Assembly (NCBI GenBank): GCA_913060645.1
Contig: CAJXSW010000020.1
Span: forward strand, 1-35,136
Origin: an uncultured Dokdonia sp.
Lineage (GTDB): Bacteria; Bacteroidota; Bacteroidia; Flavobacteriales; Flavobacteriaceae
DNA length: 35,136 bases
Reading direction: 5' to 3'
Positions 2,083-34,245 of the stretch are shown here, piece by piece. The notes beneath the pieces were generated by a model, which was not told the origin of the DNA, searched no databases, and was given only the letters and a program-made list of their open reading frames with translations. Position 1 is the stretch's first letter. Each line of letters opens with the position of its first letter. The position numbers and the translations under genes are program-made.

Positions 2083-3507
2083 TTAAGCGTTAACACCTCT
2101 CTTTTCAAGCAACACTACATTCTCAACATGATGAGTTTGGGGAAACATATCTACAGGTTGAACCTTAGTTACTTTGTAGGTGTCATCTAATAACGCAAGA
2201 TCACGTGCTTGTGTTGCACTGTTACAACTCACATACACCACTTTTTCTGGTGATATGTTTATAATTTGCTGTACAACGTCTGCGTGCATTCCATCTCTAG
2301 GGGGATCTGTGATGATAATATCTGGAACTCCATGGGCATTTATAAATTCTGTATTGAATACCTTCTTCATGTCACCCACAAAAAACTCTGTATTTTCAAT
2401 GCCATTAAGCTTTGCATTTTCCTTAGCTGCTTCAATTGCGTCTGGCACAGCTTCTACACCAATTACTTTTCTAGCTTTCTTTGCTACAAACTGAGCAATA
2501 GTACCGGTTCCAGTATATAAGTCATACACTAGCTCATTACCACTAAGTCCAGCAAAGTCACGTGTGATTTTGTACAACTCGTAAGCTTGTTTTGAATTCG
2601 TTTGGTAGAATGATTTGGCATTAATTTTAAACTTAAGACCTTCCATTTCTTCAAAAATATGATCTCTTCCAGAGAAGCATATAACCTCTTGGTCATAAAT
2701 GGTATCGTTCCCTTTACTATTTATTACATATAATAGCGAAGTTATTTCTGGCCAAGTGTCTTTTATATAGTTGAGGAGTAATTCTCTATTCTCAGTTTCT
2801 TCCTTAAAGAATTGAACTAAAACCATTAACTCACCATTAGATGATGTGCGTATCATCAATGTACGAAGGAGTCCATCTTGATTACGGGCATTATAAAATG
2901 CCATATTATTTGCAGTTGCAAATTCTTTTATACCATTACGTATGGCATTACTAGGATCACGTTGTAAATGACATTTATCAATATCAAGTATTTTATCCCA
3001 CATTCCAGCGATGTGGAAGCCTAGGGCGTTTCTATCTTCAATGACTTCATCACTTTTTATTTGTTCAAGTGTAAGCCATTTTGAGTCAGAAAAACCAAAC
3101 TCCATTTTATTGCGGTAAAAGTATTGCTCTGAACTTCCAGCGATTGGAGTAAGTTCAGGAAGTTCTATTTTACCCAAGCGTTTCAGGTTATTTTCTACTT
3201 CTTGCTGTTTGTATTCTAGTTGGAATTTATAATCCATGTGTTGCCACTTGCAACCACCACATGCATCAAAATGCTCGCATTGAGGTTGAGTACGCTTTCG
3301 CGAAAGCGTTAAAACCTCCGTTGCAGTTCCCTCGTAATAAGCTTTACGCTTCTTTGTAGTTTGTACGTTTACAACATCACCAGGCACTGCGTTATTAATG
3401 AAAATCACTTTTCCATCTGGCGCGTGGCCGATAGCTTTACCTTTTGCACCTGCATCTGTTACACTAATATTTTCAAAAACCTGTCTGTTTTGTTTACGTC
3501 TTCCCAT
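2083..3507 (-). CDS. rlmD: 23S rRNA (uracil-5-)-methyltransferase RlmD/RumA family
   Basis: A 474-residue SAM-dependent methyltransferase that makes 5-methyluridine in 23S rRNA. Residues about 12-66 are a TRAM RNA-binding domain. C77, C83, C86 (CEHFDACGGC) and C179 (DKCHLQ) fit the [4Fe-4S] ligands of RumA. The methyltransferase domain has YQTN (301-304), the SAM loop YDLYTGTGTI (328-337), the IITDPPRDGM motif (398-407) and the catalytic cysteine C428 in VYVSCNS. The start MGRRKQ lies directly behind a TATTTTTG box. A copy of the CGCTTTCGCGAAAGCG palindrome falls inside the gene and encodes LSRKR (68-72), in the linker between TRAM and the cluster cysteines. Several RumA paralogues exist in Bacteroidota, so the exact target uridine is inferred. 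Confidence 0.93.
   Translation of the reverse strand: MGRRKQNRQVFENISVTDAGAKGKAIGHAPDGKVIFINNAVPGDVVNVQTTKKRKAYYEGTATEVLTLSRKRTQPQCEHFDACGGCKWQHMDYKFQLEYKQQEVENNLKRLGKIELPELTPIAGSSEQYFYRNKMEFGFSDSKWLTLEQIKSDEVIEDRNALGFHIAGMWDKILDIDKCHLQRDPSNAIRNGIKEFATANNMAFYNARNQDGLLRTLMIRTSSNGELMVLVQFFKEETENRELLLNYIKDTWPEITSLLYVINSKGNDTIYDQEVICFSGRDHIFEEMEGLKFKINAKSFYQTNSKQAYELYKITRDFAGLSGNELVYDLYTGTGTIAQFVAKKARKVIGVEAVPDAIEAAKENAKLNGIENTEFFVGDMKKVFNTEFINAHGVPDIIITDPPRDGMHADVVQQIINISPEKVVYVSCNSATQARDLALLDDTYKVTKVQPVDMFPQTHHVENVVLLEKRGVNA
3293..3308. repeat. TTTCGCGAAA palindrome, copy 1
   Basis: Perfect 16-bp palindrome CGCTTTCGCGAAAGCG inside rlmD, read there as L-S-R-K-R codons. The dispersed family is discussed under findings. 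Confidence 0.95.
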
Positions 3508-3512
3508 AGGCG

Positions 3513-3539
3513 CAAAAATAGAACAATTCTGAATTGTTC
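3513..3539 (-). promoter_or_regulatory. rlmD promoter box with abutting operator-like palindrome
   Basis: The minus strand reads TATTTTTG at 3513-3520, a perfect TAnnTTTG -7 box only 5 bp from the rlmD start codon. Immediately upstream is a perfect inverted repeat, GAACAATTC-T-GAATTGTTC (3521-3539, 9-bp arms), filling the space between the -7 and -33 positions where a repressor would bind. No TTG -33 element is clear. Confidence 0.45.
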
Positions 3540-3662
3540 AGAAGGTTTTGCACGTCCTTTATAATTTGTAATTTAGAGGTCTTATATGGGATGATTTCTC
3601 TCCCCATTTCCATCTCTGGAAAAGCAGGAATTGTAGATTACTATCTTTAAAATATTATTATT

Positions 3663-4946
3663 ATGGCCACTGTTGATCAACTTTCTTCACAAGAGGCAAT
3701 TGCACTAGAAGACAAGCATGGAGCACACAATTATCACCCACTTCCTGTGGTTTTAAGTAAGGGAGAAGGCGTTTATGTGTGGGACGTAGAAGGAAAAAAA
3801 TACTACGACTTTCTATCTGCTTATTCTGCTGTAAACCAGGGACACTGTCACCCACGCATTGTAAATGCAATGACAGAACAAGCAAAAACACTTACGCTTA
3901 CTTCGCGTGCTTTTTACAACGATACCTTAGGACCGTACGAAAAATACGCTACAGAGTATTTTGACTTTGATAAGCTATTACCTATGAATACGGGAGCAGA
4001 GGCTGTAGAGACAGCTATAAAGCTTGCGCGAAAATGGGCTTACGAGAAAAAAGGTGTAGAAGAGCATGAAGCTCAGATTATTGTATGTGAAAATAACTTT
4101 CACGGAAGAACAACGACTATAATTTCTTTTTCTAACGATGAAGGTGCTCGTAAAAACTTTGGACCATATACTCCAGGATTTATTAAAATACCTTATGATG
4201 ATGTTGATGCGCTAGAAAATGCCCTTAAGTCACATAAAAATATTGCAGGTTTTCTAGTAGAACCTATCCAAGGTGAAGCAGGTGTTTATACTCCTGCAGA
4301 TGATTATATGCGTAAGGCGCAAGCTTTGTGTAATAAGCATGAAGTACTTTTTATAGCAGACGAAATTCAAACAGGAATTGCAAGAACTGGAGGTTTACTT
4401 GCAGTTTGTGGTAATTGTTCTTGTGAGTCTCATTGTGAGAAACAAGAGGATACCTATGCACAACCTGATATTTTAATATTAGGAAAAGCACTTTCTGGTG
4501 GAGCTTATCCAGTATCTGCCGTGCTAGCCAATGATCACATTATGGAGGTTATAAAGCCAGGGCAGCATGGTTCTACCTTTGGCGGAAATCCTATTGCTGG
4601 AGCAGTAGCAACAGCGGCATTAGAAGTTGTAAGGGATGAACACCTTATACAGAACGCTCGTAAACTAGGAACAATTTTCCGTGAGAAGATGCAGGAGTTT
4701 GTAGATTCAAGTTCTATCGCAACTTTAGTGCGTGGTCGAGGTTTATTAAATGCAGTTGTGATTAACGATACAGAAGATAGCTCAACGGCTTGGGATATAT
4801 GTATAGCGCTTCGTGATAATGGACTTCTTGCAAAACCAACACATGGTAACATTATTCGTTTTGCTCCACCATTAGTAATGAATGAAAAACAATTATTAGA
4901 GTGTACTGATATTATTATCAACACACTTAAGCAGTTTGAAAAGTAG
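3663..4946 (+). CDS. rocD: Ornithine aminotransferase (ornithine-oxo-acid transaminase)
   Basis: A 427-residue PLP-dependent class III aminotransferase that converts ornithine and 2-oxoglutarate to glutamate semialdehyde and glutamate. It shows the family's N-terminus (EDKHGAHNYHPLPVVL), the substrate-loop motif YSAVNQGHCHPR, NTGAEAVETAIKLAR (109-123), the cofactor aspartate in ADEIQTG (D233) and the Schiff-base lysine K275 in LGKALSGG. Between D233 and K275 there is an insertion with four cysteines (CGNCSCESHCEKQ, 249-261) absent from textbook OATs. Length is otherwise normal. ATG 3663 is the only sensible start. It is divergent from rlmD and followed by a strong terminator, so it is monocistronic. 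Confidence 0.96.
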   Translation: MATVDQLSSQEAIALEDKHGAHNYHPLPVVLSKGEGVYVWDVEGKKYYDFLSAYSAVNQGHCHPRIVNAMTEQAKTLTLTSRAFYNDTLGPYEKYATEYFDFDKLLPMNTGAEAVETAIKLARKWAYEKKGVEEHEAQIIVCENNFHGRTTTIISFSNDEGARKNFGPYTPGFIKIPYDDVDALENALKSHKNIAGFLVEPIQGEAGVYTPADDYMRKAQALCNKHEVLFIADEIQTGIARTGGLLAVCGNCSCESHCEKQEDTYAQPDILILGKALSGGAYPVSAVLANDHIMEVIKPGQHGSTFGGNPIAGAVATAALEVVRDEHLIQNARKLGTIFREKMQEFVDSSSIATLVRGRGLLNAVVINDTEDSSTAWDICIALRDNGLLAKPTHGNIIRFAPPLVMNEKQLLECTDIIINTLKQFEK

Positions 4947-4966
4947 ATCTTTTTGATTTAAAATAT

Positions 4967-5003
4967 AAAGCCGTTAGGATTATGAATCCTAACGGCTTTT
5001 TTG
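4967..5003 (+). terminator. Intrinsic terminator after rocD
   Basis: Perfect 15-bp stem (AAAGCCGTTAGGATT, loop ATG, AATCCTAACGGCTTT) followed by a T-rich run, 20 bp after the rocD stop. Confidence 0.93.
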
Positions 5004-5018
5004 CTTTCATGATTTGGC

Positions 5019-5046
5019 AAAAAAAAACACGTCGTGAGACGTGTTT
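5019..5046 (-). terminator. Intrinsic terminator for the CCC-motif gene set
   Basis: Minus-strand hairpin with 9-bp arms AAACACGTC/GACGTGTTT (5025-5046) and a 4-base loop. A long T run follows on the minus strand (A run at 5019-5027 on the plus strand). It ends transcription of the minus-strand gene starting at 5406. Confidence 0.85.
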
Positions 5047-5070
5047 AATGTTTATTCAAGAATAATAAGA

Positions 5071-5406
5071 CTATTGTCCCATTCCTGCTTGTTCCATTTG
5101 TTGTTGTTGCCATTCTTGCATGCCTTCCATTCCTCCAAACATAACGAGCATTACAGCTATCATTAATAAGGTTAATACACCTAAAACTAAACCAATAATA
5201 GCGATAATTCTTGCAGTTTTAAGCTGTCCATAATTATCATAGCTGTCAGGTGATAGTAAGTATGTTTTCTTGTCTTTGTTTGCTAAAAATAAGCCTATTC
5301 CAGAGAGTAGAACTCCTCCTATTCCCCAAGAGAAGCAGCAAGCTATGAATGATACAATCCCTAATACTAGAGATATGGTTACATTAGGCAGTTTACGATT
5401 TTCCAT
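5071..5406 (-). CDS. CCC-motif (DUF4190-like) small membrane protein
   Basis: A 111-residue membrane protein with two hydrophobic segments, about residues 8-42 (VTISLVLGIVSFIACCFSW..., helix or hairpin) and 66-91 (ARIIAIIGLVLGVLTLLMIA...). The ACCFSWGIGG stretch matches flavobacterial proteins annotated as CCC-motif membrane proteins. The C-terminal tail is methionine- and glutamine-rich (EWQQQQMEQAGMGQ). Between the helices is a polar loop (NKDKKTYLLSPDSYDNYGQLK). It lies 27 bp downstream of the DUF2752 gene, a pairing seen often in flavobacteria, and ends at a terminator. The molecular role is unknown. Confidence 0.8.
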   Translation of the reverse strand: MENRKLPNVTISLVLGIVSFIACCFSWGIGGVLLSGIGLFLANKDKKTYLLSPDSYDNYGQLKTARIIAIIGLVLGVLTLLMIAVMLVMFGGMEGMQEWQQQQMEQAGMGQ

Positions 5407-5433
5407 TTTAATGTTTGATGTTTAGTTAATTGA

Positions 5434-5709
5434 TTAGTTAGTCATTTTTATTGTGTAGCTAATGATGATAGTAGCGACCGTCAATATAGCTAAAAATATT
5501 ACACCTTTATTTGCAAATTTTAAATTTGTAAACTGATTGAGCATTAAAAAACCCAACAATGCTATCAAAGGATAGATTGCTGGGTACATATGAAATGCTT
5601 CTATAAATTCTCCTTTAAAAAGGAGGGAAATGGATCTTTGAATACCGCAGCCCATGCATTCAAAACCTAAATATTTCTTGTTCAGGCAGGGCAACATGTA
5701 TTCATCCAT
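5434..5709 (-). CDS. DUF2752-family membrane protein
   Basis: A 91-residue protein with the DUF2752 hallmark near the N-terminus, LGFECMGCGIQRSI (about residues 14-27), with two cysteines around MG. Two hydrophobic segments follow (YPAIYPLIALLGFLML and GVIFLAILTVATIIISYTI). The family is conserved in Bacteroidota and its function is unknown. Start MDEYMLP at 5709 is 9 bp after the T9SS-cargo gene stop, so all three minus-strand genes (7857 to 5071) look cotranscribed. M5 is an alternative start. Confidence 0.85.
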   Translation of the reverse strand: MDEYMLPCLNKKYLGFECMGCGIQRSISLLFKGEFIEAFHMYPAIYPLIALLGFLMLNQFTNLKFANKGVIFLAILTVATIIISYTIKMTN

Positions 5710-5718
5710 ATAACTTTT

Positions 5719-7857: not shown

Positions 7858-7901
7858 AATTTAAACTTTACACTTAGTTATAACTTGGGGTCAAACTTAG
7901 T

Positions 7902-7909
7902 CAAATGTA
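7902..7909 (-). promoter_or_regulatory. Promoter -7 box for the T9SS cargo gene
   Basis: Minus-strand TACATTTG, a full TAnnTTTG match, giving a leader of about 40 nt. No clear TTG -33 element is found upstream. Confidence 0.4.
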
Positions 7910-7999
7910 GATAGGACAGCGTAAGTACTATACTTTTCTGCTTAATTTTCGATAGATTGTATATTTTTACCGACTAAAAACCTATTCGACTGTAAATTT

Positions 8000-8539
8000 A
8001 TGAAATTAGGAGATCAAGTGCAAGCGTTAGACGATGATTTTGAGGGCGTTGTGGTGCATATAAAAGATGATGAAGTTTCGGTAGAAGATGAGGATGGCTT
8101 TATATCCTATTTTCGCGAAAGCGAGCTTATACCAGCAGTTTCTAAGAGTATGAGAGCGGCACTTTCTGTAGTGCCAGATTCTGTGATTTCAGAAAAAGAA
8201 GAGGCAAAAAGAAAGAAAGCAATAAAGGTAAACCCTAAAGAGCGCAATGCGCCCATGTTTGAGGTGGATTTACATATCCATAAGTTAGTCGATAGGGAAC
8301 GCGGTATGAGTAATTATGAAATTCTTACCGTTCAACTCGATACTGCAACCAGACAATTAGAATTTGCTATCAAAAAGCGTATTCCTAAGATGGTTTTTAT
8401 ACATGGAGTGGGAGAAGGAGTACTACGCGAGGAGCTCTATACACTACTTCGTAGGTATGATAATCTTAGGTTTTATGATGCAGATTTTCAGAAGTATGGA
8501 GTAGGAGCTACCGAAGTCTATATTTTTCAGAATACGTAA
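8000..8539 (+). CDS. Smr-domain protein (DUF2027/MutS2-like C-terminal nuclease domain)
   Basis: A 179-residue protein. Residues 1-45 form an SH3-like beta unit (MKLGDQVQALDDDFEGVVVH) and a charged linker follows. The C-terminal half is an Smr domain: FEVDLHIHKL (about 87-96, with the DLH motif) and VFIHGVGEGVLREEL (about 131-145, the HGxGxG motif). Smr domains nick branched DNA or cleave RNA, and this stand-alone form is common in Bacteroidota. A palindrome copy lies within the gene as F-R-E-S codons. Its stop is 1 bp from the convergent lipoprotein gene. Confidence 0.88.
   Translation: MKLGDQVQALDDDFEGVVVHIKDDEVSVEDEDGFISYFRESELIPAVSKSMRAALSVVPDSVISEKEEAKRKKAIKVNPKERNAPMFEVDLHIHKLVDRERGMSNYEILTVQLDTATRQLEFAIKKRIPKMVFIHGVGEGVLREELYTLLRRYDNLRFYDADFQKYGVGATEVYIFQNT
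8111..8123. repeat. TTTCGCGAAA palindrome, copy 2
   Basis: TTTCGCGAAAGCG within the Smr gene. The left GC arm is missing, so the palindrome is only the 10-bp core. Confidence 0.9.
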
Positions 8540-8540
8540 T

Positions 8541-9461: not shown

Positions 9462-9478
9462 AGTTATAATGTTTAATG

Positions 9479-9486
9479 CAAAAATA
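9479..9486 (-). promoter_or_regulatory. Promoter -7 box for the TSP3-like lipoprotein
   Basis: Minus-strand TATTTTTG, 18 bp upstream of the start codon at 9461. The TTTCGCGAAA copy at 9506-9518 begins 20 bp further upstream, around the expected -33 position. Confidence 0.4.
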
Positions 9487-9505
9487 GGGCAAAGTGATTG
9501 AAATA

Positions 9506-9518
9506 CGCTTTCGCGAAA
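9506..9518. repeat. TTTCGCGAAA palindrome, copy 3
   Basis: CGCTTTCGCGAAA in the divergent gap between the lipoprotein and the cysteine desulfurase. It shares 22 identical bases (9505-9526) with the copy at 34233. Confidence 0.95.
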
Positions 9519-9621
9519 ATGTTATTTACTTTCTAAAAAGCAGCTATTAGTATTGTCGTTTAGCTCTGCAAATTCTAATAACCAAATATGCACCTATCGA
9601 GCAGTCTCGAGTTATTTTGGT

Positions 9622-9629
9622 TATTTTTG
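9622..9629 (+). promoter_or_regulatory. Promoter -7 box for the cysteine desulfurase
   Basis: TATTTTTG (TAnnTTTG), 27 bp before ATG 9657. No convincing TTG -33 is seen. Confidence 0.4.
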
Positions 9630-9656
9630 TACGCAAATCCCTAATGAGTAACGCTT

Positions 9657-10814: not shown

Positions 10815-10815
10815 T

Positions 10816-15041: not shown

Positions 15042-15057
15042 CGCTTTCGCGAAAGCG
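15042..15057. repeat. TTTCGCGAAA palindrome, copy 4
   Basis: Perfect 16-bp CGCTTTCGCGAAAGCG, between the DUF4249 stop and the M23 start, 12 bp beyond the DUF4249 stop codon. Confidence 0.95.
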
Positions 15058-18445: not shown

Positions 18446-18461
18446 CGCTTTCGCGAAAGCG
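18446..18461. repeat. TTTCGCGAAA palindrome, copy 5
   Basis: Perfect 16-bp CGCTTTCGCGAAAGCG, 8 bp beyond the icd stop codon and just before the terminator. Confidence 0.95.
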
Positions 18462-18468
18462 TTACAAT

Positions 18469-20691
<2,223 letters not shown>

Positions 20692-21696: not shown

Positions 21697-21711
21697 GCTT
21701 TCGCGAAAGCG
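21697..21711. repeat. TTTCGCGAAA palindrome, copy 6
   Basis: GCTTTCGCGAAAGCG between rpsT and rplS. It sits inside a larger inverted repeat with arms AGTAGATA (21683-21690) and TATCTACT (21723-21730). Confidence 0.95.
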
Positions 21712-22235: not shown

Positions 22236-23714
22236 TTAATATGCCTTGGCAAACAGTACTCTACGATTAGAAGGAGCGCCAGAAAAAACGCATTTTCCTT
22301 CTTCTTCAACAGCATCCATAGGTATGCATCGTATGGTTGCTTTTGTGATTTGTTTGATTTTTTCTTCAGTTTCTGCAGTGCCATCCCAATGTGCACTTAG
22401 AAATCCACCTTTGGTCTCTAGTACTTCTTTGAATTCTTCAAAGTCATTTACAGGCGTTATATGCGTGTCTCTGTAATTTTTTGCCTTAGTATATAGGTTT
22501 TCTTGTATTTCCTTTAAAAGGTCAACTACAGTCTCTACAATATCCTCTTTGGCTACAAACTCCTTTGTGAGCGTATCGCGCCTAGCAAGTTCTACTGTTC
22601 GTTTCTCAAGGTCTTTAGGTCCTATTCCTATTCTTAAAGGAACACCCTTGAGCTCATACTCATTAAATTTCCACCCTGGTTTGTGTGTATCTCGATTATC
22701 AAACTTTACAGAAACTCCATGAAGTTTGAGGTCTTGTACAATTTCATTTGCCACTTGGGAAATCGCATCCAGTTGTTCTTGTCCTTTATATATTGGAACA
22801 ATGACCACCTGGAATGGAGCGAGGTTAGGAGGTAGCACAAGTCCTTGATCATCACTATGCGTCATTATAAGCGCTCCCATAAGTCGTGTAGATACACCCC
22901 ATGAGGTAGCCCATACATGCTCTTGTTTTCCTTGGTTTGTTGTAAATTTTACATCAAACGCTTTCGCGAAATTTTGACCTAAAAAGTGAGATGTACCTGC
23001 TTGTAGTGCTTTTCCATCTTGCATAAGTGCTTCGATACAAAAGGTTTCATCTGCACCAGCAAAACGTTCACTCTCTGTCTTTACACCTTTTACTACAGGA
23101 ATAGCTAAGAAATTCTCAGCAAATTCTGCATAGATGTTATTCATTAATTCTGCCTCTACTAGTGCTTCCTGTTTAGTAGCGTGTGCTGTATGACCTTCTT
23201 GCCATAAGAATTCGGCAGTCCTTAAGAATAGGCGAGTACGCATTTCCCAGCGTACTACGTTTGCCCATTGGTTTATTAATAATGGAAGATCTCTATATGA
23301 TTGAATCCATCCTTTATATGTATTCCATATAATAGCTTCACTAGTAGGACGAACAATAAGTTCTTCCTCTAATTTTGCATTAGGATCAACAATAAGCTTG
23401 CTAGGATTATCAGGATCTGTTTTTAATCTGTAGTGAGTAACTACTGCACATTCCTTTGCAAAGCCCTCTGCATTCTTTTCTTCTGCTTCAAAAAGACTTT
23501 TGGGTACAAATAATGGAAAATATGCATTTTCATGTCCTGTTTCTTTGAACATGCGATCAAGCTCTGCTTGCATTTTTTCCCAGATGGCATATCCGTATGG
23601 TTTGATAACCATACAGCCGCGCACTGCTGAGTTTTCTGCTAGGTCTGCTTGAACTACTAATTCATTATACCATTTAGAATAATCTTCACTTCTTTTTGTG
23701 AGGTTCTTGCCCAT
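22236..23714 (-). CDS. proS: Prolyl-tRNA synthetase, archaeal/eukaryotic-type
   Basis: A 492-residue class II synthetase that charges tRNA-Pro. It is the short ProRS form without the bacterial editing insertion. It shows [18 protein letters not shown] near the N-terminus, the motif 2 region [18 protein letters not shown] with [20 protein letters not shown], and the anticodon domain (VVIVPIY...). The C-terminal domain ends in RRVLFAKAY, with the terminal tyrosine typical of this type. A TTTCGCGAAA copy is read as F-A-K-A in the conserved [10 protein letters not shown] segment. It is divergent from the R/S-rich lipoprotein gene. Confidence 0.97.
22959..22971. repeat. TTTCGCGAAA palindrome, copy 7
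   Basis: CGCTTTCGCGAAA inside proS, encoding F-A-K-A on the minus strand. Confidence 0.95.
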
Positions 23715-23754: not shown

Positions 23755-23783
23755 AAAAATACCTAGCGAAATTAGGTATTTTT
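23755..23783 (+). promoter_or_regulatory. Hairpin with T run in the proS/lipoprotein divergent gap
   Basis: Inverted repeat AAAAATACCTA (23755-23765), 7-base loop, TAGGTATTTTT (23773-23783). It looks like an intrinsic terminator but lies upstream of a gene with no plus-strand gene before it. It could be an operator, an attenuator in the 5' leader of the 23814 gene, or an antisense terminator. Confidence 0.5.
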
Positions 23784-23813
23784 CAATCAAGCAACAATTA
23801 AAACACTATTGAT

Positions 23814-24965: not shown

Positions 24966-24996
24966 GCGATATAGTCTACAATATTAAATTTTTTAT

Positions 24997-26520: not shown

Positions 26521-26541
26521 TTGAGAAAATATATAATTAAT

Positions 26542-26570
26542 AAAAAAGCTACCTTCGGGTGGCTTTTTTT
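26542..26570 (+). terminator. Intrinsic terminator after the FadL-type gene
   Basis: Stem AAAAAGCTACC/GGTGGCTTTTT with a TTCG tetraloop and a 7-T run. It lies 22 bp after the stop and just before the next gene's start. Confidence 0.92.
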
Positions 26571-26578
26571 ATGAAACT

Positions 26579-27121
26579 ATGGAAACAATTATAGCACTAT
26601 CCGGAAGTAATAGCAAAACATCTATAAATAGTATGTTACTGGATTATATTATTAATGCGATACAATCTCAGCCCGCCTCGCGTTTACATCTTCTAGATTA
26701 TGATATTCCTATGTACAATTTAGATCTTGAACAAGAGCGAGGAATCCCAATTGATATTCAGATCATTAAAAATAAGATAGCCGAAGCTTCTGGGATTATC
26801 ATAGGAGTAAATGAGCACAACGGGATGATATCTGCCTATTTTAAAAATATTCTAGACTGGCTTTCTCGAGCAGACAGGAATTTCTTAGCAAATAAAAAGA
26901 TCCTATTAGTGAGCACTTCTCCTGGAGCTAGAGGAGCCTCTTCTGCGCTTGAATACATGAAGAGCACAGCTCCCCGTTTTGGAGGAGTTATAGCGGAGAG
27001 TTTTAGCTTTCCATCATTTCAAGAAAATTTTGATGTAAACGACCTCTCCATAACGAATCCTGCTATGGAGTTAGGGATTTCTCAAGTGCTGGCATCATTT
27101 CTTCAGCAGCTAGATAATTAG
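26579..27121 (+). CDS. NAD(P)H-dependent FMN reductase family protein
   Basis: A 180-residue flavodoxin-fold oxidoreductase of the FMN_red family. The N-terminal phosphate loop is ALSGSNSKTSINSML (residues 6-20). The YDIPMYNLDLEQERGIP segment and the GVNEHNGMISAYFKNILDWLSR motif (about 76-97) are those of this family. It binds FMN and reduces quinones, azo compounds or flavin with NAD(P)H; the specific substrate cannot be read from sequence. The start is 9 bp after the terminator T run, so its promoter must lie further up or transcription reads through. Its TAG stop overlaps the antiparallel TAA stop of the amylase. Confidence 0.88.
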   Translation: METIIALSGSNSKTSINSMLLDYIINAIQSQPASRLHLLDYDIPMYNLDLEQERGIPIDIQIIKNKIAEASGIIIGVNEHNGMISAYFKNILDWLSRADRNFLANKKILLVSTSPGARGASSALEYMKSTAPRFGGVIAESFSFPSFQENFDVNDLSITNPAMELGISQVLASFLQQLDN

Positions 27122-28791
27122 TTTTTTACAACCTCAAGTAAAACAATATCGTAAGGAGTGTCAAGAGTTATCTTGCCGTCGATTATACTAGCTTCTTGTC
27201 CTGAGTAGGTGTCCTTGACAGTTTGCGCTTTCGCGAAAGCGTTACCTACCACAATCTCTTTCACCCCGATATTAAGGTCTAATCCTACAACCACAGTATC
27301 TGTAACACCATTTTTATCAAATGATCTTTTAAAAACATAAGGAGCGGCACTTAGCATCTCATGAGTACCAGCGCCTACCGAAGGGTGATCTCTTCTAAAA
27401 GTCCCCAGCTTTTGCCAGTGAGTAAGAACCTCATTTGTTGTAGTACTTTTAATATCTTGCCAGTTCATAAAACTACGCAGGGTTGCATCACCATCGGTAC
27501 CTTCTATCGTTAAGTCTCTAGCAGTTTCATCACCATAATAAACCTGAGATATACCAGTAGTTAATAACAGCTTAGTACCTGTTTCTATAGCTTTGTTTCG
27601 GTCTTTATCAAATGGTTGTCCATCATCATGCGAGGTTGCATAATTTACAAAACTCTTATCGCTAAAAATGGAATCCTTAATTGTTGCATACTTACTAAAA
27701 AGTTGCTCATAGCTGCCTTGAGCATCATATTTGAATTGGAAATTAATAAGGTTATCAAAGCCATTTGCAAAGTAATCTACCTTTTTATCTCCAAAATCAT
27801 AAGCACGACCTCCATCTATAGAGTAATTGTAAACTTCTCCAAACATGAAAAAGTCATTGTCATCCATCACTTTATAATCATTGTTTGCTTTATAATCTGC
27901 AAAGGCTTTATCTGCTTGTGCTCTTAATGCCACCCATGAGGCTTCGTCTACATGTTTTGTAGTATCTACTCTAAAAGCATCTATTCCAAAATCACGTATA
28001 TAATCCGTAAGCCATTTTATAATGTAGTTGCGTGGTGTTTTCTTAAGGTTGTTTGCTGCAAAATAAGAGTCAAGTTCTGCCATTTCCTCATCATAACGTC
28101 CTTCAGACTTCCACTTTGCAACTAGTGTAGCTGGGAGCGCAACTTCTTGATTACTCTCGGTAAGGATGTCTGGAAGGTTTTCTACAAGACTACAAGCGGT
28201 AGTATTTTCATAAGTGCTAAAGGCACAATTAGGGTTTTCTCGTGCCCAATCTTCACCCCAGAATGGATCTTCCTCTGTGACTGGACCTGTGTGATTAAGT
28301 ACCACATCCATGACAATACGTATATCTTTTTGATGTGCTGCTGCTATAAGTGCTTGTAAGTCCTCTCTAGTGCCAAAGTTAGGGTCAAGTGAAGTCCAGT
28401 CCTTAGTCCAGTAACCGTGATAACCATAAGTCACACCTGTGCCTTCATCTACGGCTCCATGTACTTGCTCTACAACTGGAGTAAACCAGATGGCATTGAT
28501 CCCAAGATCTGTAAAGTAACCGTCTTCTATCTTTTGTGTGATCCCTTTGATATCACCACCCATAAAATCTCTTAGTATAGCACTCTCTTGAGTTCTATCA
28601 AAGTTGACATCATTACTTGTATCGCCATTATTAAAACGATCTGTAAGCAAGAAATACATATTTGCAGCTTCCCAGAAAAAAGGATTTTTTTCTTCCACTT
28701 CAACCTGCGTTACTGTAGTTTCTTTTTGTTTACAACTTGATACTGAAAGAATAACAAGGAGTAGCGCGGCAATAGATTTTAGATTCATCAT
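27118..28791 (-). CDS. GH13 alpha-amylase-family lipoprotein
   Basis: A 557-residue glycoside hydrolase when started at 28791 (MMNLKSIAALLLVILSVSSC). The signal ends in lipobox VSSC with KQKE after it, so it is a lipoprotein in the envelope. The reading frame extends to 29025, but that would overlap menA and add a non-signal leader. GH13 conserved regions are all present: DVVLNHTG (D162 region), FRVDTTKH with nucleophile D276, GEVYN with acid/base E319, and SHDD with H388/D389. It acts on alpha-1,4-glucans; whether hydrolase or transferase is not clear. A palindrome copy is read as N-A-F-A-K-A near the C-terminus. No other glycan-degradation gene is nearby. Confidence 0.92.
   Translation of the reverse strand: MMNLKSIAALLLVILSVSSCKQKETTVTQVEVEEKNPFFWEAANMYFLLTDRFNNGDTSNDVNFDRTQESAILRDFMGGDIKGITQKIEDGYFTDLGINAIWFTPVVEQVHGAVDEGTGVTYGYHGYWTKDWTSLDPNFGTREDLQALIAAAHQKDIRIVMDVVLNHTGPVTEEDPFWGEDWARENPNCAFSTYENTTACSLVENLPDILTESNQEVALPATLVAKWKSEGRYDEEMAELDSYFAANNLKKTPRNYIIKWLTDYIRDFGIDAFRVDTTKHVDEASWVALRAQADKAFADYKANNDYKVMDDNDFFMFGEVYNYSIDGGRAYDFGDKKVDYFANGFDNLINFQFKYDAQGSYEQLFSKYATIKDSIFSDKSFVNYATSHDDGQPFDKDRNKAIETGTKLLLTTGISQVYYGDETARDLTIEGTDGDATLRSFMNWQDIKSTTTNEVLTHWQKLGTFRRDHPSVGAGTHEMLSAAPYVFKRSFDKNGVTDTVVVGLDLNIGVKEIVVGNAFAKAQTVKDTYSGQEASIIDGKITLDTPYDIVLLEVVKN
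27226..27241. repeat. TTTCGCGAAA palindrome, copy 8
   Basis: Perfect 16-bp CGCTTTCGCGAAAGCG within the amylase gene, encoding A-F-A-K-A. Confidence 0.95.
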
Positions 28792-28891
28792 GAGAATATT
28801 TTTAATCATTACGAAGCTAGTAAATCCTTTTGAAATTTGAGAAGGGTAGAAGCCCAAAGAAAATAGTACATTTACGCACTTAAAAATATTT

Positions 28892-29794
28892 ATGCCCTCA
28901 TTCCAAGTTTGGCTTAGTGCCGCCCGTCCTCGTACCTTACCACTTTCTATAGCTGGGATTCTTGTGGGAGGCGGACTAGCTCTACAAGAAGGCGCATTTA
29001 ACTGGAGTATTTTTATACTAGCCATACTCGCTACTTTAGGTTTTCAGATCTTATCTAACTATGCAAATGATTATGGTGACGGAGTTAAGGGAACAGATAA
29101 TGCAGAGCGGGTAGGGCCAGCAAGAGCCATGCAAAGCGGACTTCTAACTGCACAAGATCTTAAGAAGGCAATTATAATTACATCAATTATCACCGTGATT
29201 ACTGTACTGCTCTTAATTTATGTCTCTTTTGGCGTAAATCATTTCTTGCTTTCCATCTTATTCTTACTTTTAGGAATTGCCGCCATCGTATCTGCCATAA
29301 AGTACACAGTGGGAAAAAGTGCTTACGGTTATAGAGGACTAGGAGACGTTTTTGTTTTTATATTCTTTGGTCTCGTGGGTGTTCTGGGGTCTTTCTTTTT
29401 ATTTACACAGTATATTAATTTTATACAGGTACTTCCTGCGCTTACTATAGGTACATTATCTACTATGGTGTTACACCTTAATAATATGAGAGACCGTGAA
29501 GCAGATGCTCGCGTAGGTAAAAACACACTTGCTGTTGTTTTGGGAGCCGCAGGTGCAGAGAAGTATCACGTTGTATTATTCCTTGTAGGACTTTTAAGCT
29601 GGGTTTCTTACCTCTTACTTACAGCAACGCATATTATTGATTATATCTCTCTTATGGCTTTTATACCACTAGTGAAGCACATGTTTACGGTAAGAAGTAC
29701 TTCAATACACGCTTTACTTGACCCAGAACTTAAAAAAGTAGCTTTATCTACATTTTTGCTTGCAGTGCTATTTTTTATAAGTTGTTACTTATAA
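28892..29794 (+). CDS. menA: 1,4-dihydroxy-2-naphthoate polyprenyltransferase
   Basis: A 300-residue UbiA-superfamily membrane prenyltransferase that joins a polyprenyl chain to DHNA in menaquinone synthesis. The first Asp-rich motif is NYANDYGDGVKGTD (56-69) and the second is NNMRDREADARVGK (197-210). About eight hydrophobic segments span the protein. The start MPSFQVWLSAARPRTLPLS is characteristic. It is divergent from the amylase gene and unaccompanied by other men genes. Confidence 0.95.
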   Translation: MPSFQVWLSAARPRTLPLSIAGILVGGGLALQEGAFNWSIFILAILATLGFQILSNYANDYGDGVKGTDNAERVGPARAMQSGLLTAQDLKKAIIITSIITVITVLLLIYVSFGVNHFLLSILFLLLGIAAIVSAIKYTVGKSAYGYRGLGDVFVFIFFGLVGVLGSFFLFTQYINFIQVLPALTIGTLSTMVLHLNNMRDREADARVGKNTLAVVLGAAGAEKYHVVLFLVGLLSWVSYLLLTATHIIDYISLMAFIPLVKHMFTVRSTSIHALLDPELKKVALSTFLLAVLFFISCYL

Positions 29795-29805
29795 TGGTTT
29801 AATTC

Positions 29806-29818
29806 CGCTTTCGCGAAA
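29806..29818. repeat. TTTCGCGAAA palindrome, copy 9
   Basis: CGCTTTCGCGAAA, 12 bp after the menA stop. Confidence 0.95.
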
Positions 29819-29972
29819 TTTTTATAAGCTTCTAAAATAAACATCCTAATTATTTTACAACGTAATCCCATTACCGCTTATGGGGTACTATGATTTATAA
29901 TTAGACAATGAGCGATTACTAAACTATAAAGTAAAACGAGGGTAGTTTCATTTGAAGCCGGTGTAAAACAAA

Positions 29973-30004
29973 AAAAAACGGGTAGCGTGAGCTACCCGTT
30001 TTTT
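29973..30004 (-). terminator. Bidirectional terminator between menA and HU
   Basis: Stem AAAAAACGGGTAGC, loop GTGA, GCTACCCGTTTTTT. A and T runs flank both sides, so it can act for HU on the minus strand and for menA on the plus strand. Confidence 0.92.
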
Positions 30005-30023
30005 ATATAACAGTTAAAACTGA

Positions 30024-30296
30024 CTAGTTTACAGAAGTTGCAAGCTCAGATCCAGCTTTGAACTTTACTACGTTCTTTGCTGCAATTTTAATAGTTTTTC
30101 CAGTTTGTGGATTTCTTCCTTCACGTGCGTTACGCTTAGAAACAGACCAAGATCCAAAACCTACAAGAGAAACACGTCCTCCGTCTTTAAGAGTCTTTTC
30201 AACATCTCCTAAGAAAGATTCTAATGCTTTTTTTGCTGCAGCTTTAGTGATACCTGCATGCTCTGCCATTCCGTCAATTAATTCTGATTTGTTCAT
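30024..30296 (-). CDS. HU-family DNA-binding protein
   Basis: A 90-residue histone-like protein: MNKSELIDGMAEHAGITKAA, then FLGDVEKTLKDGGRVSLVGFGSW, and the DNA-contacting arm REGRNPQTGKTIKIAAKNVVKF with the conserved RNPQTG turn. It bends and compacts DNA as a dimer. Full length, single gene with its own promoter (30353-30382) and terminator. Confidence 0.97.
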   Translation of the reverse strand: MNKSELIDGMAEHAGITKAAAKKALESFLGDVEKTLKDGGRVSLVGFGSWSVSKRNAREGRNPQTGKTIKIAAKNVVKFKAGSELATSVN

Positions 30297-30352
30297 AATG
30301 TAAATTGTTAATTAATTAAATTGTTGGTTAAGCTAAATGCTTAATTCCCTAA

Positions 30353-30382
30353 CAAATTTATCCGAATTAATTGCCTACGCAA
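30353..30382 (-). promoter_or_regulatory. HU promoter
   Basis: Minus strand: TTG (30380-30382), 19-bp spacer, TAAATTTG (30353-30360). Full consensus match, with a leader of about 50 nt. Confidence 0.7.
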
Positions 30383-30484
30383 GCAATAGCAAGGGAAATC
30401 AGAGGTTTTGTTAATAAGTCAAGCCAATTGTTGATAAAGGTAGTCTCTTTTTATAATTCCCTTAACACCAATAGGAGCAGGGGT

Positions 30485-31435
30485 TTAGCGCATTTTTGCA
30501 TTTTTATCAAATTTGTATCCGTTTAAAAGGTCTTTAACGGCCATTTTTTTCTTCCCAGAAAGCTGTATTTCGGTGATGCATATGTAACCTTCTGGCGTTG
30601 CGATAGCTAGATAATCTTCTACCTGAGTTACTGCTCCAGATGGAATAAACATCTCTTTTTCTGCTTTCGCGAAAGCGCTATAAATTTTTACGCGTTGCTC
30701 TTTTCCTCCATTTTCTAGCATCGTGTAAGCTGCTGGATAAGGACTCAATCCTCTTATGTGATTGTAAATATCTTGAAGTGGAGCTTCCCAATCTATTCTA
30801 GTATTCTTACTGTGTAACTTATATGCTGTTTTAAGTTCTCTACTTGAGTCTTGTACAAAAGTGCTTACTTCATCTATTGCTATTGCTTTTACCGTTTTTA
30901 CAACAAGATCCTTACCTGCAATCATAAGACGGTCATGTAACACGCCAGCATTTTCCTTATCATCTATAGCAAGCTTTTCTTGTAAGATAATCTCACCGGT
31001 ATCAATTTTTTCATCTATAAAGAAAGTAGTCACTCCTGTTTCTGTCTCTCCATTAATGATTGCCCAGTTAATAGGTGCGGCGCCACGATATTGAGGTAAG
31101 AGCGATGCATGTAGGTTAAAGGTTCCATAAGCTGGCATTTTCCATACAGCTTCTGGAAGCATTCTAAAGGCAACTACAATCTGTAGGTTTGCATTAAGGT
31201 CTTTAAGTTCTTCTAAAAACTCCTCGCTTTTGAGGTTTGTAGGTTGTAGGATGTTGAGGTTTCTTGCCTTTGCAAATGCCTTTACATCACTTTCTCTTAC
31301 TTTCTGTCCTCTTCCTGCAGGACGATCTGGTGCGGTGATTACTCCCACTACATTATATTCTTCTTCTAGTAAACCGTTTAATATAGTTACTGCAAACTCT
31401 GGTGTACCCATGAAAACTATGCGTAAATCTCTCAT
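30485..31435 (-). CDS. fmt: Methionyl-tRNA formyltransferase
   Basis: A 316-residue enzyme that formylates initiator Met-tRNA using 10-formyl-THF. The catalytic domain shows FMGTPEFAV (8-16), NLHASLLPQYRGAAPINWAI with the Asn/His pair, and an FFIDEKIDTG motif holding the third catalytic residue. The C-terminal OB-like domain ends LLNGYKFDKNAKMR. ATG 31435 overlaps the recQ stop by 4 bp (ATGA), indicating coupled translation. A palindrome copy is read as S-A-F-A-K-A in the C-terminal domain. Confidence 0.97.
   Translation of the reverse strand: MRDLRIVFMGTPEFAVTILNGLLEEEYNVVGVITAPDRPAGRGQKVRESDVKAFAKARNLNILQPTNLKSEEFLEELKDLNANLQIVVAFRMLPEAVWKMPAYGTFNLHASLLPQYRGAAPINWAIINGETETGVTTFFIDEKIDTGEIILQEKLAIDDKENAGVLHDRLMIAGKDLVVKTVKAIAIDEVSTFVQDSSRELKTAYKLHSKNTRIDWEAPLQDIYNHIRGLSPYPAAYTMLENGGKEQRVKIYSAFAKAEKEMFIPSGAVTQVEDYLAIATPEGYICITEIQLSGKKKMAVKDLLNGYKFDKNAKMR
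30663..30677. repeat. TTTCGCGAAA palindrome, copy 10
   Basis: GCTTTCGCGAAAGCG within fmt, encoding A-F-A-K-A. Confidence 0.95.
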
Positions 31436-33321
31436 AATAAGGTGTAGGTGTTATTTGCCAAGATGGCTATCTTTTTCTGATCCAAAAGTAGTCGAATCGT
31501 ATTAATTATAGTTTGTTGTGGGTAGTCTAGTTGTGATATTTCGCGAGAAGTTTTTGGGCCTTCTCTTAAAATATCGATAATAGCACTGTGTATAGCAGTT
31601 CTTGAAACTTGTTGTGTTGCATTTGTACACACATCGCATTCTCCACATGGTGTAGTTAATGTTTCGTCAAAGTACTGCATAAGTTGGATCGCTCTACAAA
31701 CGGTATCTGTAGCCAGATATGTTTTTATAGCATCTACTTGATTTTTCTTGTATGTTGCTTGTGCTTTAATATACGGTGCGATAACGTTTATTGTTCTATC
31801 ATCATCTCTAGGGACAAGGAAGGTAATTGCGGTATCATAATTTTGATGCTCATAATCTATAATATCATCTTTTTCAAGCGTAAGTAGGACTTGGTGCACT
31901 TGCTCTATAGTTTTACTTGCCTTTGTGGCAACTATGCTATAGTTGATATTTGTGACTTGTTCAAAAACGGCTCCGTACGTTCTAAGAACAGCCTTAACCA
32001 CATCATCCAGCTGATTATTACGAATCAAATAGTAAGAAAGCGCAAAATCATTTACCTTAAAATTGATAGTTGCACGTTTTGTAAACTCTTGAGACAAGCT
32101 TATCACGCTATTGCGATCCAGCACTTGAAGCGCGTTAAATGTGAGGATAGTGTGCAGCTTATAGGTTGCACAAAACTCGCTAAAGTTAAATCGATGCAGT
32201 GTCTCTTGGCCTTCGCCGTAAGAGATTTGAAAGTAGTTGTTGAGGTGCTTGTATATTTTTTTTACATCTGCTACCTGAGGAATCACTTTAATAAATTGAT
32301 TTTCTAGTCGTACCTCGTCATTTTCATTATAAAGGAGTACAGCTTGTGATTCTTGTCCTGCTCTTCCAGCTCTTCCAGACTCTTGAAAGTAATTTTCTAT
32401 GCTATCAGGGATTTCTAAATGCACTACTGTAGCTACGTCTGCTTTATCAATTCCCATCCCAAAGGCACTTGTGCCTACCATGACTTGTACTTTGTTATTT
32501 CGCCATGCGAGATATTGTTTGTGACGTTCATCACGAGACATACCTCCGTGGTAAGAAGTAGCAGAGATGCCTCTACCTTTTAAAAAGTGTGCAGTATTAA
32601 GTGTAGCCTTTCTATTACGCACATATACAATAGCACTAGCCTTTGTATTTGCGAGGATAGTTTCTAGCTGGTAGAACTTGTCTGTAGCTTGCACTACATT
32701 ATATGTGAGGTTAGGGCGGTGATAAGAAGTTTTAAATAACTGCGGGTCTTCTAACTCTAACTGCTCTGTGATATCTTTAAGTACCTTAGGAGTAGCCGTT
32801 GCTGTAAGTGCTATAAATGGCACGGTAGGCTTGAGAGCACGTAGTTGTGAGATTTCTCTATATGCAGGTCTAAAGTCATGTCCCCATTGAGAAATACAAT
32901 GAGCCTCATCTACCGCAATGAGAGAGACATTCATAAGTTTAATACGTTCCCTTACAAGCTCTTGTTGTAATCGCTCTGGTGAGAGATATAAAAGCTTGTA
33001 GTTACCATAAATGCAATTATCGAGTAGCGTGTCTAGCTCGCTAAAGGAAATTCCGCTCGTTATAGAGAGTGCTTTGATACCTTTTTCTTGCAAAGTCATT
33101 ACTTGGTCCTTCATGAGAGCGATAAGTGGTGATACCACTATCGTAATTCCGTCCAGTAATAACGCAGGTAATTGATAGCATAGAGACTTTCCGCCACCTG
33201 TGGGTAATAGTGCAATACTATCACTTCCAGAAAGCACATTCTTTATAATTTCTGCTTGTTGTGGTCTAAAGGTGGAGTGACCCCAGTATTGTTGTAATAT
33301 GTCTTGTGCTTGATTACTCAA
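31432..33321 (-). CDS. recQ: ATP-dependent DNA helicase RecQ
   Basis: A 629-residue 3'-5' SF2 helicase. Walker A LLPTGGGKS (38-46), DEAH box VDEAHCISQWGHDFRP and motif VI ESGRAGRAGQ are all present. The zinc-binding subdomain has cysteines in CRAIQLMQYF and CGECDVC, followed by an RQC-like winged helix. The C-terminus (TAIHSAIIDILREGPKTSRE...) looks like a winged-helix segment rather than a recognisable HRDC domain. It overlaps the AAA-ATPase upstream (8 bp) and fmt downstream (4 bp), giving a three-gene operon. Confidence 0.95.
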   Translation of the reverse strand: MSNQAQDILQQYWGHSTFRPQQAEIIKNVLSGSDSIALLPTGGGKSLCYQLPALLLDGITIVVSPLIALMKDQVMTLQEKGIKALSITSGISFSELDTLLDNCIYGNYKLLYLSPERLQQELVRERIKLMNVSLIAVDEAHCISQWGHDFRPAYREISQLRALKPTVPFIALTATATPKVLKDITEQLELEDPQLFKTSYHRPNLTYNVVQATDKFYQLETILANTKASAIVYVRNRKATLNTAHFLKGRGISATSYHGGMSRDERHKQYLAWRNNKVQVMVGTSAFGMGIDKADVATVVHLEIPDSIENYFQESGRAGRAGQESQAVLLYNENDEVRLENQFIKVIPQVADVKKIYKHLNNYFQISYGEGQETLHRFNFSEFCATYKLHTILTFNALQVLDRNSVISLSQEFTKRATINFKVNDFALSYYLIRNNQLDDVVKAVLRTYGAVFEQVTNINYSIVATKASKTIEQVHQVLLTLEKDDIIDYEHQNYDTAITFLVPRDDDRTINVIAPYIKAQATYKKNQVDAIKTYLATDTVCRAIQLMQYFDETLTTPCGECDVCTNATQQVSRTAIHSAIIDILREGPKTSREISQLDYPQQTIINTIRLLLDQKKIAILANNTYTLL

Positions 33322-33853
33322 GAGCCAGCGTTTTTAATATAAAAGCCGCTCTATCCTCTACTGGAGACATAGGTACTACAATAGGGGTGTACCCATAATT
33401 TTGGTACGTTTTTACAAGGTGTTTTTCAATTTTTTGAGCTTGTTCAAAAGTCTCGTATCGCTCTTGATCTACTTTATGTATTTTCTCCCAAGTAGGCAAT
33501 ATGAATACGATATCATAAGTATACGTCTTACAAGCCTGTACAAAAGCCTCAGGATATTCTTGTCCTATAAAATCCATGTATGCCACGGTGTCAGGAATCC
33601 CTCGGTCTATAAAAACAGTGTCTGTGATGTATGTATCTACATCTTTGTGCTGTTCTATGCGAGCATCTCTCAGAAGCTCAGAAAACAACAGTGGTTTCTC
33701 TAGAAATAACTGATCTATACCTTCCTTTTGGGCTTGGCTTATCACTTGTCTTGAGATTTCCTCAAGGCACGGATACCCTAGTTGTTCTAGGTGCTTGAGT
33801 AATGTTGTTTTCCCGGTAGATGGACCTCCTATGAGAAGTATACGTTTTGGCAT
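33314..33853 (-). CDS. AAA-family ATPase, NadR/Ttd14-like P-loop protein
   Basis: A 179-residue P-loop NTPase when started at MPKRILLIGGPSTGKTTLLK. The open frame reaches 33982, but that extension is AT-rich, overlaps the divergent DUF493 gene and carries no domain. Walker A is GGPSTGKTT (7-15) and a DRGIPDTVAYMDF segment follows around residues 80-92. This fits the AAA_28 family (PF13521), related to the kinase domain of NadR. The substrate is unknown. A minus-strand TAATTTTG box lies 20 bp upstream. It is the first gene of the recQ-fmt operon. Confidence 0.85.
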   Translation of the reverse strand: MPKRILLIGGPSTGKTTLLKHLEQLGYPCLEEISRQVISQAQKEGIDQLFLEKPLLFSELLRDARIEQHKDVDTYITDTVFIDRGIPDTVAYMDFIGQEYPEAFVQACKTYTYDIVFILPTWEKIHKVDQERYETFEQAQKIEKHLVKTYQNYGYTPIVVPMSPVEDRAAFILKTLALE

Positions 33854-33873
33854 AAAAATGGTAGTCTTTTTAG

Positions 33874-33916
33874 CAAAATTAAGCAAACTACAAAGAACGT
33901 GAATTTTGTACCTTTG
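33874..33916. promoter_or_regulatory. Divergent promoter pair (AAA-ATPase / DUF493)
   Basis: Minus-strand TAATTTTG (33874-33881) faces the AAA-ATPase operon. Plus-strand TACCTTTG (33909-33916) lies 17 bp before DUF493. Both match TAnnTTTG; the -33 elements are unclear. Confidence 0.45.
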
Positions 33917-33933
33917 TATTATAATAGATACCC

Positions 33934-34224
33934 ATGAGTTCAGATAAAAATCCAGAAGAATTTTATAAAAAATTAAAGACACAACTAGAAGAAACTTCTA
34001 GCTGGCCTGCACCTTATTTGTACAAGTTTATTGTGCCTGCAAATGCAGAGAAAGAAGCGCAAATAGAAGGTCTCTTTGATCACCTAGGAGCTGTAATAAA
34101 GAAGAATGTCTCTCGCACAGGCAAGTACACAAGCGTTTCTATTAACGTGCGTCTAGATAATCCTGATGTTGTGATAGAAAAGTACAAGGAAGTAAGTAAG
34201 ATAGAAGGCGTTATTTCATTGTAA
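33934..34224 (+). CDS. DUF493 (YbeD-like) protein
   Basis: A 96-residue small alpha/beta protein matching DUF493: YKFIVPANAEKEAQIEGLFD, then KKNVSRTGKYTSVSINVRL and VIEKYKEVSKIEGVISL at the C-terminus. The fold resembles ACT-like regulatory domains. The family is conserved in bacteria and its function is unclear. It is a single gene with its own promoter and is followed by a structured RNA-like element. Confidence 0.9.
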   Translation: MSSDKNPEEFYKKLKTQLEETSSWPAPYLYKFIVPANAEKEAQIEGLFDHLGAVIKKNVSRTGKYTSVSINVRLDNPDVVIEKYKEVSKIEGVISL

Positions 34225-34232
34225 GAGATACA

Positions 34233-34245
34233 CGCTTTCGCGAAA
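34233..34245. repeat. TTTCGCGAAA palindrome, copy 11
   Basis: CGCTTTCGCGAAA, 8 bp after the DUF493 stop. It shares the 22-base context (34232-34253) with copy 3. Confidence 0.95.

Follow-up and report, generated by a model that had tools for sequence, protein, structure and literature searches.

What keeps an identical palindromic word in place every few kilobases of a bacterial genome? The question is raised by a 35,136-nucleotide stretch of DNA from an uncultured Dokdonia sp. (Flavobacteriaceae; assembly GCA_913060645.1, contig CAJXSW010000020.1, positions 1 to 35,136), here called the window, which holds 11 exact copies of the 10-mer palindrome TTTCGCGAAA against 0.04 expected, a number reached by none of 100 shuffles. 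GC flanks the 10-mer on both sides at 6 of these 11 sites and on at least one side at all of them, and the window also contains two one-mismatch copies. The initial annotation listed the same 11 copies, with start positions 0 to 3 bases lower than those of the 10-mers because it mostly counted from the first base of the flanking CGC or GC; it placed them in both intergenic and coding DNA, and relative to open reading frames (ORFs) of at least 100 codons, six are indeed intergenic and five coding. We find that the word, which also occurs as a 12-mer form (CTTTCGCGAAAG) and a 16-mer form (CGCTTTCGCGAAAGCG), is maintained throughout the genomes of this genus, and we tentatively read it as the site of a dimeric DNA-binding protein.

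The source genome (G000; 3,112,495 bases in 219 contigs) has 932 copies of the 10-mer compared to 10 of the reversed word, and 1.20 Mb drawn from six genomes of the same genus contains 376 perfect copies, far above the 0.93 that a second-order Markov model predicts. Nor is the word confined to the region of the window: all 39 of the 20-kb samples taken from two single-contig chromosomes hold four to nine copies. Neither of the two outcomes that the initial annotation named as refuting it, near-expected counts and confinement to one region, is seen. Density is about one site per ~3 kb in the denser genomes and one per 5 to 6 kb in the sparser ones. Copy number, together with the evenness and the conservation across species described below, strongly supports the initial suggestion of genome-wide maintenance, with a protein as the probable reader.

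All 17 other genomes of the genus examined are rich in the word (481 to 1,195 copies). Among 397 sampled Flavobacteriaceae genomes, six are rich (G000, G012, G027, G289, G441, and G238, from three genera), and none of the remaining 391 has more than 34 copies; in a sample of 395 genomes from the whole phylum, the 12-mer occurs 727 times in the window's own genome and 0 to 11 times in every other. G006 is a close relative of the source genome (isocitrate dehydrogenase 99% identical), and its sodium-pump rhodopsin is identical at 278 of 280 residues (printed alignment) to structure 7q36, which we take to be KR2 of Krokinobacter (Dokdonia) eikasta; this match identifies the genus as Dokdonia. A second word-rich genus, g11, groups with Nonlabens dokdonensis in a prolyl-tRNA synthetase tree (support, 100), and the N. 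dokdonensis genome has 730 copies. In this quick single-gene tree, the three word-rich genera do not form one clade: Nonlabens belongs to a separate group (support, 98), while G238 is placed next to Christiangramia (support, 88). With the word-rich genera scattered in this way, a single origin of the word is not shown. A plasmid search with prolyl-tRNA synthetase yielded no relative of the word-rich genera among the best 10 of 84 records, and k-mer scans of family loci of at least 12 and at least 9 kb gave no other dispersed palindrome of comparable strength among the matches listed. No account of the word in bacteria was found in the open-licence literature, including the available portions of PMC4390886, PMC7965970, PMC1939737, PMC7811141, PMC5217627, and PMC8034619; the last, in the portion available, mentions TTTCGCGAAA in connection with words that the genomes of humans and other animals lack.

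The conserved unit is longer than the 10-mer. A consensus built from 121 sites in seven Dokdonia genomes reads TACGC-TTTCGCGAAA-GCGTA and is palindromic throughout. CGC flanks occur on both sides, one side, or neither side at 234, 159, and 22 of 415 sites, close to the 237, 153, and 25 expected if the halves are independent, and only 12 of 275 arm deviations are mirrored (compensated) on the other side. Independent halves and uncompensated arm changes fit two half-sites in duplex DNA and disfavor a hairpin. From these patterns in the sequence, we infer that the reader is probably a protein dimer that binds duplex DNA. Farther out, the arms are polar: at 10 to 25 bases from the center, C is scarce on the strand 5′ of the palindrome (0.02 to 0.13 by position, compared to ~0.16 beyond this range) while G and T are frequent, alike at 209 coding and 206 intergenic sites in nine genomes (the arm analysis, like the coding and intergenic assignments below, rests on a simple purpose-written ORF caller). 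The same C-poor, GT-rich polar arms flank 31 Nonlabens sites. Partial copies of the 10-mer are few, with 74 single-mismatch forms in the 1.20 Mb from six genomes compared to 36 expected, and variants at the third position carry most of this excess (39 versus 5.6 expected).

Sites are spaced far more evenly than chance would place them in the two chromosomes that were sampled over their whole length. Nineteen 20-kb samples from all round the G016 chromosome hold five to nine copies each (variance/mean, 0.19), and none of 5,000 random draws was as even; twenty samples from the G004 chromosome hold four to eight copies each (variance/mean, 0.23), with 1 of 5,000 random draws as even. Nonlabens genome G027 is equally even (variance/mean, 0.17 per 10 kb; 16 bins). 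Very short gaps are scarce: only 6 of 304 pooled gaps are below 500 bp, against ~45 reckoned from the mean gap (20-kb samples censor long gaps), and G006 and G009, each represented by one 235-kb stretch of which 5 kb is N, have one short gap apiece where 7.6 and 8.3 are expected. Even spacing with few short gaps points to selection for local coverage. Near-variants keep a greater distance from perfect sites than random positions (medians of 1,403 and 1,633 bp versus 851 bp). Six gaps in G006 and G009 exceed 8.5 kb, of which four contain strain-specific DNA and two do not; in these genomes, 32.5 kb and 28.6 kb of strain-specific DNA contain 3 and 4 sites, respectively, compared to 0.30 per kb in shared DNA.

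Copy number was also compared with genome size. Copies stay near 1,000 to 1,200 in G011, G014, and G015 (4.8 to 5.5 Mb) as in G006, G008, and G016 (3.3 to 3.4 Mb), although size differs up to 1.6-fold, while G013 (4.3 Mb, 663 copies) and G007 (5.5 Mb, 955 copies) have fewer. Across genome sizes, the near-constant number looks as if the sites were part of the core genome.

Individual sites are retained in place between species. Several orthologous sites are kept where the surrounding DNA drops to 67 to 80% identity (e.g., site 1 in Table 1), while sites 2, 4, 7, and 10 are lost or changed in some relatives. Of 59 sites aligned from G006 to G009, where the flanks diverge by 5.7%, 55 are intact, compared to 32.7 expected without constraint, and in the reverse direction, 55 of 60 are intact. 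At greater distances, 13 of 18 sites are intact from G006 to G016 (2.3 expected), 11 of 15 from G016 to G006 (2.1 expected), 6 of 14 from G016 to G004 (0.9 expected), 4 of 7 from G000 to G016 (0.6 expected), and 3 of 5 from G000 to G004 (0.3 expected). Intact counts in the distant pairs are low because some rows scored as changed are shifted alignments that still hold a site, while others are real losses. Site changes between species are mostly point mutations.

Sites in the G006, G016, and G004 samples are 44 to 56% coding, compared to 87 to 91% of the DNA, so that coding sites stand at 0.50 to 0.65 of background, and every class of intergenic region, whether tandem, convergent, or divergent, shows enrichment (2.6- to 9.5-fold). 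Two further samples have too few sites to judge: G012 has 15, of which 10 are coding and 5 lie between tandem genes, with no convergent or divergent ones, and G027 has 11. Coding sites use all three reading frames, with AFAKA-, LSRKR-, and RFRES-like peptides at 115, 52, and 42 of 209 sites. Enrichment in every intergenic class and use of all frames argue that the word is not a promoter, a terminator, or a peptide motif.

The word also occurs in tailed phages. Its 16-mer form was found in 41 stretches of 30 viral contigs. In the sequence available, nineteen of the 30 carry two to seven copies of the 10-mer, and 14 of those 19 have C-poor arms (C, 0.02 to 0.11); the 11 single-copy contigs are mostly GC-rich, and their copies are probably due to chance. 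Twenty proteins were used to annotate five of the contigs: genes for head, portal, tape-measure, terminase, or sheath proteins are present in three, an integrase in another, and only phage families of unknown function in the fifth. The nearest named relatives of two viral-contig proteins are in Cellulophaga and Winogradskyella phages. The word is kept in 78 of 117 homologous phage comparisons below 90% amino acid identity, a set that covers 26 of the 41 stretches, many of them near-identical and all chosen for having the word. Word-bearing phages probably live in word-rich hosts.

Local clusters of the word were seen in otherwise word-poor genomes as well. In word-poor genera, several copies of TTTCGCGAAA are clustered near a ParB-family gene (a 616-codon open frame; G029:C18:74149-85794 and G149:C1:2364602-2377607), as if carried by an integrative element that had formerly resided in a word-rich host. 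Four copies of the 12-mer lie within 16 kb of G208 (C1:311232-326910), possibly a transferred island.

Taken together, we consider it plausible, if short of probable, that the word marks the sites of a dimeric DNA-binding protein for chromosome architecture or maintenance. The reader in Dokdonia, Nonlabens, and one further genus would be a symmetric dimer with ACGCTTTCGCGAAAGCGT (16 to 18 bp) as its high-affinity site and a footprint extending ~25 bp each way from the center, over the GT-rich, C-poor strand 5′ of the palindrome. Some 500 to 1,200 sites per genome, evenly spread, would each serve the surrounding few kilobases as an anchor or loading point of a chromosome-organizing or DNA-maintenance complex. 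A second site nearby would add nothing, while a long empty stretch would be under selection to gain one. In a more specific form, which we regard as possible, the sites would constitute a ~3-kb chromosomal ruler of ~1,000 near-identical 50-bp sites, at which a dimeric protein organizes or licenses all resident DNA, and phages would have acquired the ruler.

Several observations weigh against a dimeric architectural protein. Spacing is less even in G013 (variance/mean, 0.61 per 10 kb; 8 bins), and the gaps in G006 and G009 have coefficients of variation (CVs) of 0.89 and 0.92, no different from random. Third-position variants, though in excess, lack C-poor arms (C, 0.143), as do 5 of the 19 multicopy viral contigs, whose arms are not clearly C-poor (0.14 to 0.20). 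The word is absent from two cultured Nonlabens phages (35.7 and 35.0 kb). A GT-rich strand is more typical of single-strand readers such as RecA, and we know of no bacterial nucleoid system with ~1,000 sites of 16 bp. The known palindromic chromosomal sites of dimeric proteins, parS (ParB), Noc sites, SlmA sites, and matS, of which parS and Noc sites share TTTC...GAAA with the word, are far fewer and unevenly placed, whereas the word occurs 481 to 1,195 times per genome and evenly in the two chromosomes sampled. The reader protein was not found by family counts that covered ParB_N, PF00437, and PF00145 (whole gene contents were not compared). In particular, no ParB or Noc paralogue is specific to word-rich genomes: a single ParB_N match is the rule in both groups (10 of 12 word-rich genomes and 13 of 18 word-poor ones), and extra ParB_N copies are scattered over both. 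Some site differences are gaps (2 of 18 from G006 to G016 and 1 of 14 from G016 to G004). Finally, evenness, constraint, and point-mutation origin would also be expected of an uptake or self-marking signal.

The word could alternatively be a DNA uptake signal, with a surface receptor that prefers word-bearing DNA and transformation that spreads and maintains it, in which case it would be a palindromic dialect of the DNA uptake sequences (DUS) and uptake signal sequences (USS). Like the DUS and USS of Neisseriaceae and Pasteurellaceae, the word has on the order of 1,000 copies, a strong consensus, an intergenic preference, a restriction to few genera, and an origin by point mutation; even spacing and scarcity in strain-specific DNA are likewise uptake-like traits. 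Unlike them, it is a palindrome with polar arms on both sides, and to our knowledge, known uptake words are not palindromic. The G016 genome has a Competence-family gene of the ComEC type (L182:8711-10735), and PF00437, the pilus/secretion ATPase family, turns up more often in word-rich (5 of 12) than in word-poor (2 of 18) genomes, yet it falls below the cutoff in 7 of 12 word-rich genomes, including single-contig G006, G016, and G238 (other parts of the pilus machine were not searched). Phage structural genes also bear the word, a further difference from DUS and USS. Significant even spacing of uptake sequences is cited in the available part of PMC1939737, and Riemerella columbina, a member of the Flavobacteriaceae according to its paper, prefers its own DNA (PMC7965970, available part). 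On balance, we rate an uptake signal as rather unlikely. Phage carriage, with the word kept in place between relatives, would fit better with a mark of self or a recombination signal, that is, a two-way Chi-like site that stops an end-processing enzyme or loads RecA and that phages acquire to survive. The arms are GT-rich and polar on both strands, and the GT-rich strand 5′ of the word would receive RecA first; the annotation of the word-free Nonlabens phages includes ERF and YqaJ-type recombination proteins of their own. Chi resembles the word in density and in a possible tie to the GT-rich DNA favored by RecA. However, Chi words are short (5 to 8 nucleotides) and asymmetric, whereas the word is a 16-bp palindrome, and so long a palindrome indicates a dimer on duplex DNA. 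Chi sites in 150 kb of Escherichia coli (34 sites) are also randomly spaced (variance/mean, 1.29 per 10 kb; gap CV, 0.93) and have no GT-rich 5′ flank. We consider this explanation distinctly unlikely.

Methylation was among the roles that the initial annotation put forward, alongside nucleoid, segregation, and repair functions, by analogy with HIP1 (GCGATCGC). The likeness holds insofar as both are iterated palindromes maintained across whole genomes of a clade. It fails in that the word has 16 to 18 bp with polar arms instead of 8 bp, is strongly evenly spaced, and shows no sign of an over-represented inner methylation word; HIP1 is also ~10-fold more frequent. A HIP1-type word would be maintained via a DNA methyltransferase and methyl-directed repair, and restriction to few genera would agree with this. 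Outside the 10-mer, however, inner words are near chance in four genomes (TTCGCGAA, 0 to 1 observed; TCGCGA, ratio of 0.94 to 1.42), and the C5 methylase family PF00145 is missing from 6 of 12 word-rich genomes while present in 10 of 18 word-poor ones (N6-adenine methylases were not searched). Methylation loses ground and appears improbable, leaving nucleoid, maintenance, or repair functions as candidates. Deviations at the outer two positions of the word are at chance (5 versus 6.4 expected), whereas HIP1 deviation tends to be greatest at outer positions; the available portion of PMC4390886, the source for this tendency, also reports that HIP words accompany methyltransferases in cyanobacteria and that HIP1 flanks extend palindromically in some species. 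Least probable of all, in our judgment hardly credible, is a dispersed mobile palindrome (a repetitive extragenic palindrome [REP], a miniature inverted-repeat transposable element [MITE], or similar) or a hairpin or terminator element. The word is dispersed, palindromic, and enriched between genes, and the few differences by gap noted above, with one more among the 59 sites aligned from G006 to G009, would suit a mobile element. Most differences at aligned sites are nevertheless point changes, with no gaps among the 60 sites aligned from G009 to G006, and coding sites lie in all three frames. A hairpin or terminator is further opposed by the uncompensated arm changes and by the mirrored flanks, which pair no more than their own shuffles do.

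The preferred reading, a dimeric protein for chromosome architecture or maintenance, and its competitors differ in what they would imply. The ruler, if true, would represent chromosome packing or self-recognition of a kind not described in bacteria. A nucleoid protein as the reader would provide a bacterial example of regularly spaced architectural sites; an uptake receptor would add Bacteroidota and palindromes to the known range of sequence-specific uptake; and a mark of self DNA would explain the presence of the word in phages. The existence of iterated words, HIP1 and uptake sequences among them, has long called for an explanation. Given the word's length, its near lack of partial copies, its even spacing, and its presence in some phages, its reader should be findable by one affinity experiment in these marine bacteria, which are cultivable and harmless.

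Table 1. Sites of the word in the window. Conservation in relatives is counted only where the alignment covers the site.
Site	Form	Span	10-mer start	Context	Relatives
1	CGCTTTCGCGAAAGCG	3293..3308	3296	Inside RNA (uracil-5-)methyltransferase-like gene, ORF 2083-3507 (-)	Intact in all 10 genomes with an alignment here, counting the window's own; no alignment in an eleventh
2	TTTCGCGAAAGCG, one arm	8111..8123	8111	Inside ORF 8000-8539 (+)	Lost or changed in G010 and G004
3	CGCTTTCGCGAAA, one arm	9506..9518	9509	Intergenic, divergent ORFs on either side	
4	CGCTTTCGCGAAAGCG	15042..15057	15045	Intergenic, tandem ORFs	G008 differs by one base
5	CGCTTTCGCGAAAGCG	18446..18461	18449	Intergenic, directly past the stop codon of isocitrate dehydrogenase, ORF 18469-20691 (-)	
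6	GCTTTCGCGAAAGCG	21697..21711	21699	Intergenic	10-mer in 10/10 aligned genomes despite differing flanks
7	CGCTTTCGCGAAA, one arm	22959..22971	22962	Inside prolyl-tRNA synthetase gene, ORF 22236-23714 (-)	Point changes: TTTTGCAAAA or TTTTGCGAAA instead in several relatives
8	CGCTTTCGCGAAAGCG	27226..27241	27229	Inside alpha-amylase-like gene, ORF 27118-29025 (-)	
9	CGCTTTCGCGAAA, one arm	29806..29818	29809	Directly past UbiA-like gene, ORF 28892-29794 (+)	Aligned in two relatives only; 10-mer in both
10	GCTTTCGCGAAAGCG	30663..30677	30665	Inside formyltransferase gene, ORF 30485-31435 (-)	Missing in G010
11	CGCTTTCGCGAAA, one arm	34233..34245	34236	Intergenic	Aligned in three relatives; 10-mer in 3/3

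Closely paired sites revealed no convincing self-regulated gene. One such pair in G016 (C1:101679 and 101712; L182:6679 and 6712) lies 33 bp apart between a SurE-like gene (identified by eye) and a small ORF, near the Competence-family gene, which itself contains a site. Lower copy numbers were seen in genus g147, which groups with Flavobacterium: G364, G604, G638, G654, and G744 have 8 to 11 copies of CTTTCGCGAAAG per genome compared to 0 to 1 for the control, and the other sampled genomes of this genus have 0 to 4. The G638 copies are dispersed, and inspection by eye of seven places showed no common gene context.

A second word, CTTCGGAA, is over-represented in L077 (Ulvibacter antarcticus), L133, and L015 and in genomes G444, G063, G029, G384, G124, G024, G445, and G149. 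Its TCTTCGGAAA form has 167 to 451 copies per genome, on both strands, in those eight genomes and 0 to 7 in five Dokdonia and two Nonlabens genomes. We rejected it as a dialect of the palindrome, given gap CVs of 0.82 to 1.20, variance/mean ratios of 0.48 to 1.35 per 10 kb, and 91 to 97% of copies in coding DNA. With near-random spacing and so high a coding fraction, CTTCGGAA may instead be a Chi-like or codon-driven word.

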